Shown: positions 29,609-40,176 of the stretch, one piece after another
Layout: each line of letters begins with the position of its first letter
Numbering within the stretch: the stretch's first letter is position 1
Assembly (NCBI GenBank): GCA_021785515.1
Contig: JAJYEX010000004.1
Coordinates: 1 to 64,000, forward strand
DNA from: Pseudomonadota bacterium
GTDB taxonomy: Bacteria; Pseudomonadota; Gammaproteobacteria; Acidiferrobacterales; UBA6901
Direction of reading: 5' to 3'
DNA length: 64,000 nucleotides
Notes under the pieces: model-generated
Database searches by the model: none
What the model was told of the DNA's origin: nothing
Seen by the model: the letters and a program-made list of their open reading frames with translations, nothing else
Translations under genes and position numbers: made by a program

Positions 29609-30044
29609 TAGTCCAATATGCTGACCGTCATAGAGACCCTAACCTTTATGCGACTGGTCGCTGACTATTGGACCGAGGATGACGGTGGTGGATCCGCTGC
29701 TTGGATCGCTCAGAACCCGGATGCCGGCGACGTCATTCCCGGATCGGGTGGTTGCCGGAAGGTACGCTGGGTGCGTAAGGGCATGGGAAAGCGCGGCGGC
29801 GTGCGGGTTATCTATTTTAACCGATTGGCGAACGGGGAAATCTGGCTACTCTTGATCTATGCAAAGAACGTTCAGGACAACATTCCCGGCCATGTATTAA
29901 GACAGATCAAAGAGGAGATTGAAGATGCCTAATTCGCAGAAAGAACTGCGTGAACGCGGTGCCAAGCGCAATCTCGGGCAGGAGCTGTTGCAATCCGTGC
30001 GCGAGATGAAGGCGGGTCGCCGCGGACGCGTTCGCAAAATCAAA
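29599..30044 (+). repeat. higBA segment duplicated at 33043-33488, copy 1
   Basis: 446 bases match 33043-33488 at constant offset 3444, with several mismatches at the 5' part of the toxin gene and near identity after it. The repeat starts inside the operator (GCCGTATAATTAG), so copy 2 lacks the -35 box. Confidence 0.9.
29618..29932 (+). CDS. higB: HigB/RelE-type toxin (type II TA)
   Basis: A 104-residue toxin of the HigB2/RelE superfamily: the small fold ends with RWVRKGMGKRGGVRVIYFNR and IWLLLIYAKN, the signature of this group. Such proteins cleave mRNA on the ribosome. Toxin gene first and antitoxin second is the hig order. The antitoxin start lies inside the last codons of this gene. The start ATG is ten bases behind the -10 box, so the leader is very short. 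Confidence 0.88.
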   Translation: MLTVIETLTFMRLVADYWTEDDGGGSAAWIAQNPDAGDVIPGSGGCRKVRWVRKGMGKRGGVRVIYFNRLANGEIWLLLIYAKNVQDNIPGHVLRQIKEEIEDA

Positions 30045-30254
30045 GTGTCGGCCATTGTGTTGGCGCGGACCAAAGCTGGGTTGTCGCAGGCGCAATTTGC
30101 ACAGTTGCTCGGCGTATCGGTACGGACACTCCAAGACTGGGAGCAGGGCCGACGCGAGCCATCCGGTGCGGCGAAGACTTTGATTCGTATCGCTGCGCGT
30201 CGTCCCGAGGTGCTCCGCGATCCTGCAATATTGTCGCCGCGGGCGGTAACATGA
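29925..30254 (+). CDS. higA: HigA-type antitoxin, XRE family
   Basis: A 109-residue antitoxin with a C-terminal helix-turn-helix (LARTKAGLSQAQFAQLLGVS and VRTLQDWEQGRREPSGAAK). It neutralises the toxin and represses the promoter at 29581. The ATG at 29925 overlaps the toxin end by eight bases. The downstream sequence contains the TGCTGTAATC tandem repeat. Confidence 0.9.
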   Translation: MPNSQKELRERGAKRNLGQELLQSVREMKAGRRGRVRKIKVSAIVLARTKAGLSQAQFAQLLGVSVRTLQDWEQGRREPSGAAKTLIRIAARRPEVLRDPAILSPRAVT

Positions 30255-33061: not shown

Positions 33062-33376
33062 ATGCTGACCGTCATAGAGACCCCAACCTTTGTGCGACTA
33101 GTTGCTGACTATTGTACCGAGGATGACTGTGGTGGATTTGCTGCTTAGATCGGCCAGAACCCTGATGACGGCGATGTCATTCCCGGATCGGGTGGTTGCC
33201 GGAAGGTACGCTGGGTGCGTAAGGGCATGGGAAAGCGCGGCGGCGTGCGGGTTATCTATTTTAACCGATTGGCGAACGGGGAAATCTGGCTACTCTTGAT
33301 CTATGCAAAGAACGTTCAGGACAACATTCCCGGCCATGTATTAAGACAGATCAAAGAGGAGATTGAAGATGCCTAA
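33062..33376 (+). pseudogene. higB-like toxin, inactivated copy
   Basis: This gene corresponds to 29618-29932. A TAG interrupts it at about codon 29 (GCTGCTTAGATCGG where copy 1 has GCTGCTTGGATCG). Other substitutions cluster before that point, while the 3' two thirds are nearly identical. Loss of the toxin with its promoter is the usual way such copies decay. Confidence 0.85.
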
Positions 33377-33488
33377 TTCGCAGAAAGAACTGCGTGAACG
33401 CGGTGCCAAGCGCAATCTCGGGCAGGAGCTGTTGCAATCCGTGCGCGAGATGAAGGCGGGTCGCCGCGGACGCGTTCGCAAAATCAAA
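33369..33488 (+). pseudogene. higA-like antitoxin, 5' fragment
   Basis: The first 40 codons of the antitoxin are identical to copy 1 (MPNSQKELRERGAKRNLGQE and on to KIK). The frame then enters integrase DNA, so the DNA-binding domain is missing. Confidence 0.85.
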
Positions 33489-34349
33489 TCTTTGGGATCT
33501 GCTCGACCAATACCAGAAGGAAATCACGCCCGGCAAGCACGGGGCAGCGCAGGAGCGTTCAAAGATCGGCGTACTAAAGGGCCTGCCGCTTGCCCGGTTG
33601 AGCCTTTCGGCCATTAACGGTAAAGCGATGAGCCAACACAAGGAGGGACGCCAAAAATGGTCTCGCCTGCGACGATCAACAGGGAGCTGAATGTGCTCTC
33701 CCATGTTTTTGCTGTCGCTAAAAAGGAGTGGCACCTGCACCTTCCTTGGGGGAATCCTGTTCAGCTTGTTCGCCGCCCAAAGGCGGATGATAAGCGTGAG
33801 CGGCGACTTCGGGACACGGAAAAAGCGCGCATCCTGCAGGTCGCCCGGAGGGACCAGGGGGAACACATCTATGAGATCATCGTGCTTGCCCTGGAAACCG
33901 GTATGCGACGCGGGGAGATCGCGGCGATGAGATGGGAGCACCTGGACAAAAAGAACCATGTGCTGCTCATCCCCCAAACCAAGACCGGTGTCTCCCGAAA
34001 AGTGCCGCTATCGAGCCGGGCCATACGGGTATTCAAGGGCCTGCCCCGGCGGATCGACGGCGCGGTGTGGAACACCCGACCGGAAAGCATCAGCCGGGCG
34101 TTCGAACGTGCATGCACTCGCGCTCGTGCGGATTATGAAAACGAATGTGGTGCGGCTGGGGTCAGGCCGGATGGGCTGATACTCGTAGATTTACGATTTC
34201 ACGGTCTGCGTCATGAAGCGACCTCCAGGTTATTCGAGAAGGGATTGAACCCCATGGAGGTCGCGGCCATCACAGGGCACAAGACACTCCAGATGCTGAT
34301 GCGGTACACACATCTGCGGGCAGAAGATCTTGTGAAACGACTGGGGTAA
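33489..34349 (+). pseudogene. Integrase pseudogene, 5' truncated and frameshifted
   Basis: From 33489 the frame LLDQYQKEITPGKHGAAQER matches residues near 68 of the integrase at 16786, with many substitutions. A missing A in the run at 33649-33653 shifts the phase; from 33660 the rest (VSPATINRELNVLSHVFAVA to RAEDLVKRLG) is open to 34349. The catalytic Arg, HxxR and Tyr are still there, but the N-terminal arm-binding domain is gone. It is a related, not identical, integrase from another island, marking the right side of the mobile region. Confidence 0.88.
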
Positions 34350-34962: not shown

Positions 34963-35673
34963 CTATGCGCGCACCGCACCATCGGTCGCTGAAACGGTAC
35001 CGACTGGTCGCGGTCGCGGCCACAGTACCGGCCACAGCCTCACCACGAACAAAAGCAACGCCAACCAAGCGAGACACGCACCGCCGAGCGCAAGCCAGCG
35101 CCACACCGAGAGGAAGCCGGAAACCAGCATCAGGAGTCCAGCGTGAGCCAAGCCGAGCTGAGTCCATGCCAGCCACCCGCCACGGATCGGGTTGCCGGTA
35201 AACCGCGGCAGCATGTGTTCGCCAAGCGCATAGACCATGAACGTAATGAACCCGAGCGTAAACAGATGCAAAGGCGCCACGCGCGCAAACCCCTGCAGGA
35301 AAAATGACCCCTTGACAGCAAGAAATCCTCCGGCCGCAACCAGATAGGCCAGCGAGGAATGCACCGCAACCCGCCCACTGGATCCCATGCTGAGCCCCAC
35401 GTGGTGCGCCTGCGCCGCAGGCTTGGGTGGTGCCGCAGCGACGATGGCAAGCGCCTGCTGCCGGGTCTGCACGCCAATCGCGATCAGCGTCCCGTCGACC
35501 ACCAGTGCCGGAATCGTCTTCAGACGTAACCGACTGACCAGTTCCCTGCCCTCGGGCTGGCCCATGTCCACAACATCGAATTCGAACTCACGTTCTTCCG
35601 ACACCTCACGCCAGACTTTCTCGGCCTGATGGCAGGAGGTACACCAATCCGATACCAACAGCTGCACCTTCAT
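34963..35673 (-). CDS. Thioredoxin-like domain fused to NnrS-like four-helix membrane domain
   Basis: 236 residues. Residues 1-80 form a thioredoxin/glutaredoxin-like domain with CTSC (Cys11, Cys14) and the cis-Pro region KTIPALVVDG. Four membrane helices follow from about residue 105. They contain APLHLFTLGF (His136) and GEHMLPRFTGNP (His153), the same pattern and the same 17-residue spacing as the neighbour at 36158. Such His pairs in NnrS- and oxidase-subunit-I-like helices can bind heme or copper. The two domains in one chain suggest electron or thiol transfer to a membrane metal site. It is last in a three-gene minus-strand set. Function unknown. Confidence 0.75.
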   Translation of the reverse strand: MKVQLLVSDWCTSCHQAEKVWREVSEEREFEFDVVDMGQPEGRELVSRLRLKTIPALVVDGTLIAIGVQTRQQALAIVAAAPPKPAAQAHHVGLSMGSSGRVAVHSSLAYLVAAGGFLAVKGSFFLQGFARVAPLHLFTLGFITFMVYALGEHMLPRFTGNPIRGGWLAWTQLGLAHAGLLMLVSGFLSVWRWLALGGACLAWLALLLFVVRLWPVLWPRPRPVGTVSATDGAVRA

Positions 35674-35707
35674 GCAGGCCCTCCGGGCAGGGCACCTACG
35701 GCCAGCA

Positions 35708-36154
35708 TCAATCCTGGCAACGCATGCACTGGACGTCGTAGCGATCTATCCATTTGCGCAATGCCTCTATCGCCGCCGCACCTTTGTGCAGGCGCGCCAT
35801 CGCCGTGGAAGGGTCGTCTGGACGCATGACCACGAGCCAGGCGTCGCCATAGGGAGAAATGTTGACCAGACCGGGGCGATCCGCCACTTGGTCATTGATG
35901 CGCAGGATCTCACCGTCGAATGGAGCCGGTATGCCTCCGGCCCACTTTCCGGACTCGAGGCGTGCCACTGGCTTGCCGCTGTCGCGATGCGTTCCCGGCT
36001 TCTTGAAATAGATATACTGCACCCGACCGGCCATCGTCTGGGCGGCATCGGTGATGCCGAGCGTATAGACGCCATCGTCCTCTGGACGCACCCACACATA
36101 GTCCAGATCATAGTAGAGCCCTTCCGGCAATTCGCAGCCCCGGTATTCGACCAT
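35708..36154 (-). CDS. GcvH/LbpA-like lipoyl-carrier protein
   Basis: 148 residues of the glycine cleavage H-protein fold: LDYVWVRPEDDGVYTLGITD, then YFKKPGTHRDSGKPVARLES and GKWAGGIPAPFDGEILRIND, where Lys70 is at the lipoylation position. No other glycine-cleavage genes are near. In sulfur oxidisers similar proteins (LbpA) carry lipoate for the sHdr system, but hdr genes are not in the window. The C-terminus has an extra CMRC pair, not part of normal GcvH. It lies three bases after the membrane gene at 36158, so the two are translated together. Confidence 0.82.
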   Translation of the reverse strand: MVEYRGCELPEGLYYDLDYVWVRPEDDGVYTLGITDAAQTMAGRVQYIYFKKPGTHRDSGKPVARLESGKWAGGIPAPFDGEILRINDQVADRPGLVNISPYGDAWLVVMRPDDPSTAMARLHKGAAAIEALRKWIDRYDVQCMRCQD

Positions 36155-36157
36155 CGA

Positions 36158-36553
36158 TCAGCCTGCCGGTCCGTGTATCTTCACGGTAAGCATGATGTTA
36201 AGCGCAAACATGCCGATGCCGGCCCAGCTCACTGCGCCTCCGATCAATACAAGATGATTGAATGTCATGACCCATCCCGCCGACATCAGCCACAGTCCGA
36301 CATTGGAAACGTAAAGCTGCCAGTTCGCCAGGCGCTCAGAAAAAAGTGGATTGCCAGAGAAACGCGGCAGGACGTGCAGGCCAACGCCATAGATCATCAT
36401 GCCGACAAAGCCGAGCAGCATGAGGTGCCCGTGCAGGCTCGCGACGTCGCCCGGAACCAGGCTCGGATCGTAAAGCCATGCAATGCCTACTAACCCACCG
36501 ATCAGGGCGTAAACCAGGCTGAGGGTGACGAAAAGACGGTTTCGTTTATGCAT
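36158..36553 (-). CDS. NnrS/oxidase subunit I-like four-helix membrane protein
   Basis: 131 residues, four helices. HGHLMLLGF (His41, His43) and GLHVLPRFSGNP (His60) repeat the motif of the membrane half of the protein at 34963. The start at 36553 (MHKRNRLF) is chosen because the open frame before it encodes an unlikely, basic, helix-free leader. Small proteins of this kind are often annotated as cbb3-oxidase subunit I-like or NnrS-like. First gene of the trio; probably a heme or copper membrane protein, by motif only. Confidence 0.75.
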   Translation of the reverse strand: MHKRNRLFVTLSLVYALIGGLVGIAWLYDPSLVPGDVASLHGHLMLLGFVGMMIYGVGLHVLPRFSGNPLFSERLANWQLYVSNVGLWLMSAGWVMTFNHLVLIGGAVSWAGIGMFALNIMLTVKIHGPAG

Positions 36554-36900
36554 GCCGAAACCCCGATTTTTGCCTACAATGGCGCAACCCAACCGCCGTC
36601 CGTTTGGACCTCGATTAAGACCAGAAGCAATGATGGGCAGTATAGCCGAATGAAAGCCGGGGTTAAACGAGCCGGCGAACTGCGGCGCGCGCTGCCTCCA
36701 CCAGCGCTTTGAGCCCGAATGGATGGCCGTGGCTCGACTCCGCCCGCAATGGTTGCATGGCCGATCCGTCTGTCTTATTTTAGAATGTGTCAAACATCGC
36801 CGTGGCAGACGCGTCGTTTGCTTACGAACGATCTGCGTCTGCTGCATGGACGATGCGATGCTTTCTCTTCAACAGTGGTAATTGAATAAGGAGTGATTTG
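36554..36900. promoter_or_regulatory. Divergent intergenic region before sodB
   Basis: About 350 bases between the minus-strand trio and sodB must hold promoters for both. AT-rich patches lie near 36775-36790 and 36880-36897. I could not define a box with confidence. Confidence 0.35.
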
Positions 36901-38148: not shown

Positions 38149-38240
38149 CGTGCAGATCTCCCGTTTAGGTTGTTTTCCCAGCATAGACCACGCAAGGCAT
38201 CGGGTTGACGCCGGTCTTATATTTCGATAATAATGGAAAT

Positions 38241-38612
38241 ATGGAATTGTTGAATGCGGCAGAATACCTTGCCGCGCTCGGTCACGAATCGCGGCTGTCG
38301 ATCTTTCGTCTGCTGGTGCAGGCCGGAGAGGAAGGGCTGAGCGCCGGCGTGATCGGGGAACAGCTCGGTCTGGCTCCTGCGACGCTCTCTTTTCACCTGT
38401 CGCATCTGGCGCGCACGGGACTGATCTTTGGCCGGCAGCAAAGCCGTTTCATCTTTTATTCGGTCGATTATGCGGTCATTGACACACTGTTTGCCTTCCT
38501 CCTTGAAGACTGTTGCCAGGGTAAGGCCTGCCTCCCGAAAACCGGGGCCGTCGGCGGCGCAAAGAGTCGCAGGCGGATGGTGCGCGCCGGGGCGGCGGGC
38601 CGGCCGGCGTGA
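38241..38612 (+). CDS. arsR: ArsR-family arsenic-responsive repressor
   Basis: A 123-residue winged-helix repressor: ALGHESRLSIFRLLVQAG, GLAPATLSFHLSHLARTGLI as recognition segment, then the C-terminal As(III) site with Cys91, Cys92 and Cys97 in DCCQGKAC. C-terminal cysteine trios of this kind are known from Acidithiobacillus-type ArsR, unlike the CVC box of E. coli ArsR. It leads the arsRC-acr3 operon and should repress it. The start ATG lies behind ATAATGGAAAT; the AT-rich stretch GATAATAATGG just before is a likely promoter or operator. Confidence 0.9.
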   Translation: MELLNAAEYLAALGHESRLSIFRLLVQAGEEGLSAGVIGEQLGLAPATLSFHLSHLARTGLIFGRQQSRFIFYSVDYAVIDTLFAFLLEDCCQGKACLPKTGAVGGAKSRRRMVRAGAAGRPA

Positions 38613-38624
38613 GCCGCGGGGGGA

Positions 38625-39086
38625 GTGGGTACCGTGCATATCCGTAAATCAGCGCAGCCGGGCATTGCCGGCAGTCCGGTCAAGACCGTACTCGTGCTGT
38701 GCACGGGAAATTCCTGCCGTTCCCAGATGGCCGAGGCCATACTCAGGCATGAGTTTGGCGGGCGCGTCCGCGCCCTGTCGGCCGGAACGAGTCCGCAACC
38801 CAGGGTCGCGGACCATGCCATCGAGGCGCTGCGCCTCGCCGGTCTTCCGGCTGAGGGCCTGCATCCCAAGGATGTCGGTGCCGTTCTCGACGAACCCATC
38901 GATCTTGTCGTGACGGTGTGTGACAACGCCAGGGAGAACTGCCCGGTCTTTCCCCGCCAGGTGAAGACCGTTCACCTGCCGTTCCATGACCCGCACGGCG
39001 AACCGCTCGCGGGCTTTGTACGGGTGCGAGACGACATTCGTGCGCGTCTGGTTCCGGCCGTGCGTGCCGCACTCGCGCTTTCTTAG
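38625..39086 (+). CDS. arsC: Thioredoxin-dependent arsenate reductase
   Basis: A 153-residue protein of the low-molecular-weight phosphatase fold. The P-loop VLCTGNSCRSQMAEA holds the nucleophile Cys; the second and third redox cysteines lie in VCDNARENCPVF, as in S. aureus ArsC. It reduces arsenate to arsenite at the expense of thioredoxin. The GTG at 38625 is used; a later GTG at 38634 would only drop three residues. Twelve bases separate it from arsR. Confidence 0.92.
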   Translation: MGTVHIRKSAQPGIAGSPVKTVLVLCTGNSCRSQMAEAILRHEFGGRVRALSAGTSPQPRVADHAIEALRLAGLPAEGLHPKDVGAVLDEPIDLVVTVCDNARENCPVFPRQVKTVHLPFHDPHGEPLAGFVRVRDDIRARLVPAVRAALALS

Positions 39087-39099
39087 AAGGAGAAGCATC

Positions 39100-40176
39100 A
39101 TGTCTGCACAATGTCAGCCAGCGGCCAGGGCGGGGTCCGCTACCGCCATGGGCGGATTCGAACGCTACCTGAGCCTGTGGGTGCTGCTGTGTATCGCGGT
39201 CGGCATCACGCTCGGGAAGCTTGCGCCCGGCCTGTTCCAGGCCATCGGACAGATGGAGCTGGCGCAGGTCAACCTGCCGGTCGGCCTGTTGATCTGGGTG
39301 ATGATCATCCCGATGCTGGTCAAGGTGGATTTCGGGGCGCTGCACGAGGTGCGGCAGCATTTCCGGGGCATCGGTGTCACCCTGGTCGTGAACTGGCTGG
39401 TCAAGCCGTTTTCCATGGCATTTCTCGGCTGGTTTTTCATCCGGCACCTGTTTGCGCCCCTGCTGCCGGCCGATCAGCTGAACAGCTATATCGCCGGACT
39501 AATCCTGCTGGCTGCCGCCCCGTGCACCGCGATGGTATTTGTCTGGAGCCGCCTGTCGGATGGTGACCCGCTGTTCACGCTCTCGCAGGTGGCGCTGAAC
39601 GACACCATCATGATTTTCGCCTTTGCGCCTATTGTGGCCTTGCTGCTGGGGATCTCCTCGATCACCGTACCGTGGAGCACGCTGTTCACCTCGGTGGTGC
39701 TGTACATCGTTATCCCCGTCACGCTGGCGCAGGTCTGGCGCCGCGCGCTGCTCGCCCGGGGACAGGAGGTTTTCAACCGGGCGATGACGCAGATCGGTCC
39801 CTGGTCGATGGTCGCGCTGCTCCTCACGCTGGTCCTGCTGTTTGCCTTCCAGGGTGAGGCAATCATGCAGCAGCCGCTCGTGATCGTGCTGCTGGCGGTT
39901 CCGATTCTGGTCCAGGTGATCTTCAATTCCGCGCTGGCCTACGGGCTCAACCGGCTTGCAGGCGAGAAGCACAACGTGGCCTGTCCGTCGGCTCTTATCG
40001 GGGCGTCGAACTTTTTCGAGCTTGCGGTTGCGGCGGCCATCAGCCTCTTCGGATTCCAGTCGGGCGCGGCGCTGGCCACCGTGGTCGGAGTGCTCATCGA
40101 AGTGCCAGTCATGCTGCTGGTGGTGCGGGTGGTGACGGCGACGAAGGGCTGGTACGAAAGACCGGGCAGCACCTGA
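39100..40176 (+). CDS. acr3: Acr3-type arsenite efflux permease
   Basis: A 358-residue inner-membrane arsenite exporter of the Acr3 family with ten helices. YLSLWVLLCIAVGITLGKLA, LIWVMIIPMLVKVDF, the conserved AAPCTAMVFVWSRLSDGDP with the essential Cys, and IGASNFFELAVAAAISLFG are diagnostic. It exports the product of arsC. AGAAGGAGAAGC before the ATG is a strong ribosome binding site. Third gene of the ars operon. Confidence 0.95.
   Translation: MSAQCQPAARAGSATAMGGFERYLSLWVLLCIAVGITLGKLAPGLFQAIGQMELAQVNLPVGLLIWVMIIPMLVKVDFGALHEVRQHFRGIGVTLVVNWLVKPFSMAFLGWFFIRHLFAPLLPADQLNSYIAGLILLAAAPCTAMVFVWSRLSDGDPLFTLSQVALNDTIMIFAFAPIVALLLGISSITVPWSTLFTSVVLYIVIPVTLAQVWRRALLARGQEVFNRAMTQIGPWSMVALLLTLVLLFAFQGEAIMQQPLVIVLLAVPILVQVIFNSALAYGLNRLAGEKHNVACPSALIGASNFFELAVAAAISLFGFQSGAALATVVGVLIEVPVMLLVVRVVTATKGWYERPGST

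Follow-up and report, generated by a model that had tools for sequence, protein, structure and literature searches.

Three genes, C, B and A, lie intact and head to tail in the order C-B-A on the minus strand of the window, the whole stretch of 64,000 nucleotides that was analysed. The best reading of this operon is a membrane-attached dithiol/heme relay that is induced by NO or low oxygen and serves sHdr sulfur oxidisers; we infer the electron path of this relay, its substrate and the lipoylation. By tree and sequence, B forms a third clade, here designated LbpA3, among the sHdr lipoate-binding proteins. The findings suggest that the operon protects or side-tracks sulfur oxidation under NO or low oxygen. 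No description of this gene combination was found in the literature, which, with few subscription papers within reach, is a weak sign of novelty.

Gene C (36158..36553, minus strand) encodes a four-helix membrane protein of 131 aa, predicted to be a single heme-copper-oxidase repeat with an HGH motif. Its start at 36553 (MHKRNR...) is the same as in relatives, and the open frame extends upstream to 36847. Gene B (35708..36154, minus strand) encodes LbpA3, a predicted GcvH-fold lipoyl carrier of the LbpA family. The Lys70 codon in ESGK (35945..35947, minus strand) is the predicted lipoylation site, and the C-terminal C143-x-R-C146 (35717..35728, minus strand) reads C143-M-R-C146 in the window; LbpA1 retains the first of these Cys only. 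Lys70, C143 and C146 are present in 67/67 sequences, as is an N-terminal Cys7. Gene A (34963..35673, minus strand) encodes 236 aa, a thioredoxin fused to a putative four-helix heme-copper-oxidase repeat. The thioredoxin domain (residues 1-78; 35440..35673, minus strand) is indicated by predicted structure and by an above cut-off match to Pfam Thioredoxin_3 (E 1.4e-8), inside which lies the CTSC motif (C11, C14).

An earlier sequence-only reading of the window had described the three-gene unit, its motifs, the CTSC thioredoxin-like domain of A and two aligned His 17 residues apart in C and A. All of this was recovered: the open reading frames are as described, the spacing is that of H43/H60 in C and H136/H153 in A, and every residue it named is invariant. 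Cys7 of B is additional to those residues. H41, H43 and H60 of C, C11, C14, H136 and H153 of A, and C7, K70, C143 and C146 of B are invariant across 28 C, 28 A and 54 B sequences; the motifs are therefore, at the level of sequence, judged not to be due to chance.

Gene B and the lipoate-binding proteins

The published scheme comprises LbpA1 and LbpA2 only, based on proteins whose genes lie inside or next to hdr clusters (PMC6067878), and conserved Cys near both termini serve as the LbpA criterion (Cao et al. 2018, PMC6067878). B carries the LbpA hallmarks, a lipoyl Lys and Cys near the N- and C-terminus, with an extra C-terminal Cys that gives CxRC. In a tree of 181 sequences, with a single GcvH row on a long branch, B, LbpA1 and LbpA2 each form one clade; the support of the B clade is 95/96, and its sister is LbpA1 (support 98/93), with which B shares 49-50% identity. 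B resembles LbpA1 and LbpA2 (PMC6067878) in the GcvH fold, the ESGKW lipoyl-lysine motif, the Cys near both ends and the occurrence in the same genomes, but differs from them as a separate clade with the extra Cys, mostly encoded apart from the sHdr genes and together with a DNR-like regulator, hemerythrin and thioredoxin. The earlier description of B as GcvH/LbpA-like, with Lys70 and a C-terminal CxxC, agrees with the Pfam match (GCV_H, E 7.2e-34), the tree and the invariant C143/C146.

The Pfam match would also fit an ordinary glycine-cleavage H protein with A and C as neighbours by chance. B, however, groups with LbpA1 in the tree, a true GcvH with the ESVKAASD motif is encoded separately in the window genome (at C11), and the C-B-A order is kept in about 35 loci. 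The score of B also lies below the NCBIfam GcvH equivalog cut-off (81.2 bits vs 115.85). The H-protein explanation is refuted by tree and synteny, and we give it next to no weight.

A complete sHdr cluster is found on contig 4 of the window genome, with LbpA1, a DsrE-like protein, LbpA2, a lipoate ligase and LipS-like proteins, all named by eye except for the GCV_H and LplA matches. The Thioalkalivibrio locus tags of Cao et al. 2018 (PMC6067878) are consistent with the same arrangement of lbpA1, one gene and lbpA2. B is located on contig 9, not within or beside the sHdr cluster of the window genome; elsewhere, one locus (L181) is an exception in which B adjoins an sHdr gene. B is, as judged from sequence, a member of the LbpA protein family, from which membership of the sHdr complex does not follow. 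An sLpl-type lipoate ligase gene is present in the window genome, and Lys70 is predicted to be lipoylated by an sHdr-type ligase.

Genomes were searched with LbpA1 as query, the B and LbpA1 families being told apart by identity. LbpA1 also occurs in 37 of the 49 B-carrying genomes (one partial), and several of the remaining genomes are fragmentary. An order-level survey of 57 genomes found B in all 18 genomes with LbpA1, and neither protein in 34. An even class-level sample of 369 genomes gave both in 16, LbpA1 only in 4, B only in 2 and neither in 347, with matches spread over about ten families; LbpA1 is thus present in 16 of the 18 B-carrying genomes (Fisher 1.8e-22, in a test that ignores phylogeny). 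Of the 369 genomes, 12 have C, and B is present in 11 of these; the twelfth (G250) has LbpA1 and a lone unit.

Membrane units A and C

The AlphaFold model of A consists of the thioredoxin and four helices (pLDDT 83), that of C of four helices with moderate confidence (pLDDT 75). The membrane domain of A (residues 97-219, with H136 and H153 in HLFTLGF...GEHMLPRFTGNP; 35017..35385, minus strand) matches heme-copper oxidase subunit I in VIA with Z 12-14.5 and rmsd 1.9-2.8 over 121-129 residues. Helical bundles can reach such Z values by chance; all 12 of the 12 top VIA rows for A belong to the heme-copper oxidase superfamily, and the sequence evidence from C agrees. The profile of C matches all three CcoN repeats, and in its helix 2 (H41-G-H43 to H60, HGHLMLLGF...GLHVLPRFSGNP; 36374..36433, minus strand) H41 and H43 align with the HGH in helix X of NorB and with the HVH found in CcoN; of these two His, A retains the second only. 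In NorB and CcoN these helix-X His bind the high-spin and low-spin hemes, as known from solved structures. The membrane domain of A is homologous to C (hhalign E 7.5e-22, 31% identity). On models and sequence, C and the membrane half of A are each judged to be one four-helix repeat with the fold of heme-copper oxidases.

The oxidase assignment of C rests on sequence and on homology to A: with Foldseek alone no oxidase match for C reached significance (E above 0.4), the VIA rows for C are generic helical bundles, and hhalign gave weak matches between C and four COX1 or three NnrS sequences, whose alignments are shallow. No residues corresponding to the CuB/FeB ligands were recognised in A or C. 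The two units share with heme-copper oxidase subunit I (CcoN, NorB, COX1) the four-helix repeat fold, including the NorB HGH and the match to three CcoN repeats in C; unlike subunit I, each is one repeat, with four helices instead of twelve, and A is fused to thioredoxin. The nearest outside relatives of C are single-repeat proteins of about 175 aa in cbb3 gene clusters (L205:2297-2824, L206:3986-4507), where they adjoin diheme cytochromes c and a thioredoxin-fold lipoprotein.

The sequence-only reading had likened A and C to NnrS-like His-rich membrane proteins; the membrane His domains stand, and their fold is refined to that of the oxidase repeat. NnrS is likewise an NO-regulon membrane protein, has weak sequence similarity to A and C, and in full form adjoins some B loci, but it is about 390 aa long with a full Pfam match. 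NnrS proper was rejected for A and C, whose matches are below the Pfam cut-off (A: 23.2 bits vs a gathering value of 28). The same reading had placed the His pair at one membrane metal site. This was rejected as well: 17 residues in one helix span about 25 angstroms, which puts the two His at opposite membrane faces. From the charge distribution, H43 and H136 probably lie near the periplasmic face and H60 and H153 near the cytosolic face.

Gene neighbourhood, control and proposed mechanism

The roughly 35 loci with the C-B-A order include Sulfuriferula, Thiobacillus and several Burkholderiales, in line with the earlier expectation of conserved clusters in sulfur or iron oxidisers; the co-occurrence extends to other genomes, and the orthologues keep the His pair and CxxC. 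The C-bearing loci form one subclade of B (36 rows, support 100/75). B loci outside it are without A and C and have hemerythrin and a separate thioredoxin instead, so that A and C are not essential to B. Acidiferrobacter-type B loci also have a CopD-like membrane protein and an LplA-like ligase; the ligase gene is divergent from the regulator in about 14 of these loci (e.g. L031:4162-5226) and may serve LbpA3 specifically. In loci of the Acidithiobacillus type, B lies next to a globin and an FNR-type reductase. The Pfam families counted up to 3 kb from B in 35 dereplicated loci are hemerythrin (30), Thioredoxin_3 (25, A proteins included), Crp/Fnr (18), SirB (5), LplA (3), CopD (3), NnrS (2), globin (2) and DUF2249 (2); no oxidase genes recur within this distance in the same loci.

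The closest solved relative of the neighbouring Crp/Fnr regulator is the NO sensor DNR of P. aeruginosa (9.8e-37; FNR about 1e-9). A TTGAY-N4-RTCAA box is found upstream of C in 23 of 35 operons of relatives, against an expectation of 0.008, and mostly stands 64-82 bp from the start. Most Acidiferrobacter-type loci have the box 61-67 bp ahead of B. Boxes of this TTGAT-N4-ATCAA type are common to FNR and DNR regulons, so that low oxygen is as possible as NO. On this sequence evidence, the operon in most relatives looks switched on by one or the other. DNR control has been predicted for the NO-detoxifying cgb-COG0543 globin operon of A. ferrooxidans (Rodionov et al., PMC1274295). That operon is alike in its DNR-type regulator and box, and genes resembling its globin and reductase lie next to B in loci of the Acidithiobacillus type; unlike C-B-A, no lipoyl carrier, thioredoxin fusion or oxidase-repeat proteins are described there (PMC1274295).

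NirK was found in 10 and cytochrome cd1 in 8 of 67 B-carrying genomes, one genome pair being counted twice. With nitrite reductase in only about a quarter of these genomes, a direct link of B to denitrification was rejected. In the genome of the window itself, NirK, cytochrome cd1, full NnrS and NorB-like proteins are all absent. As nitrite reductase is rare in B-carrying genomes and absent from this one, NO would mostly come from outside.

We put at slightly under an even chance that B, as a third LbpA, no longer serves as a sulfur carrier but works in a protective relay induced by NO or low oxygen. In such a relay the lipoyl group attached to Lys70 by the sHdr-type ligase, as a dithiol, and the CxRC of B would undergo disulfide (or S-nitroso or persulfide) exchange with the CxxC in the cytosolic thioredoxin of A. 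A and C would assemble, with C H43 and A H136 holding a b-type heme like helices II and X in the oxidases, and C H41 might hold a second, ligand-binding heme. Electrons would pass between the dithiols and the membrane heme or quinone, and NO or nitrosated thiols, which would otherwise stall sHdr dithiol chemistry, would be reduced or removed. Both thioredoxin and dihydrolipoate are known to act as denitrosylases (PMC9598160 and its ref. 58). The sequence-only reading had left a choice among sulfane sulfur, NO and copper. Regulation and gene neighbours indicate NO or low oxygen, co-occurrence ties B to sHdr, and nothing here favours copper. If the relay is real, lipoate would gain a third role, in an NO/low-oxygen response beside sHdr, and single oxidase repeats would be seen to work as separate proteins. 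The dithiol and electron steps of sHdr, which are poorly understood, would also gain a concrete, testable set of partners, present in sulfur oxidisers of acid mines and groundwater.

An electron exit for sulfur oxidation is a possible but unlikely alternative: LbpA3, reduced when charged by sHdr and induced by low oxygen, would pass electrons through the thioredoxin of A and an A-C heme to the quinone pool. The near-strict co-occurrence of B with LbpA1, the locus L181 and the fit of the box to FNR-type oxygen control are consistent with it, but B usually lies outside the sHdr cluster, the hemerythrin, DNR-like regulator, globin and NnrS neighbours would go unexplained, and about half of the B-carrying lineages are without A and C. 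A lipoate-driven NO reductase protecting sulfur oxidation is considered improbable; here C and A would form a split minimal enzyme of the heme-copper-oxidase fold, in which electrons from the lipoyl carrier through thioredoxin would reduce NO or another small ligand at a C H41 heme. It is very doubtful that A and C help to build or protect a terminal oxidase, as an assembly or copper/heme-handling module: the cbb3-cluster relatives of C next to a thioredoxin-fold lipoprotein and a second A gene near a quinol-oxidase-like operon in the window genome speak for it, yet no oxidase genes recur near B loci, and lipoyl carriers play no part in the known assembly factors.

The window copy and its surroundings

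The window copy is collinear with genus relatives over 35015-36583 only. sodB stands in place of the regulator, and a phage integrase gene lies just past A. No recognisable FNR/DNR box or regulator was found at this copy; the site where relatives carry the box (36611..36624, minus strand) holds a degenerate FNR/DNR-type sequence, CTGGTCTTAATCGA, matching at 7/10 (shuffle P 0.2). The window copy may be decaying or under different control.

An HTH antitoxin-like open reading frame at 29919-30254 (plus strand) has its first approximately 40 residues repeated at 33363-33617 (plus strand), just before the phage-integrase frame at 33657-34349; this repeat suggests a duplicated or rearranged junction beside the operon. 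A second thioredoxin-membrane gene, 66% identical to A and without B or C, is located on contig 11 of the window genome (L069:8762-9466), flanked by transposase-like genes and a quinol-oxidase-like operon. Adjoining sodB is an arsenic cluster at 38205-40176 (plus strand) with arsR, arsC-like and ACR3-like genes, named by eye except for an HTH_20 match.
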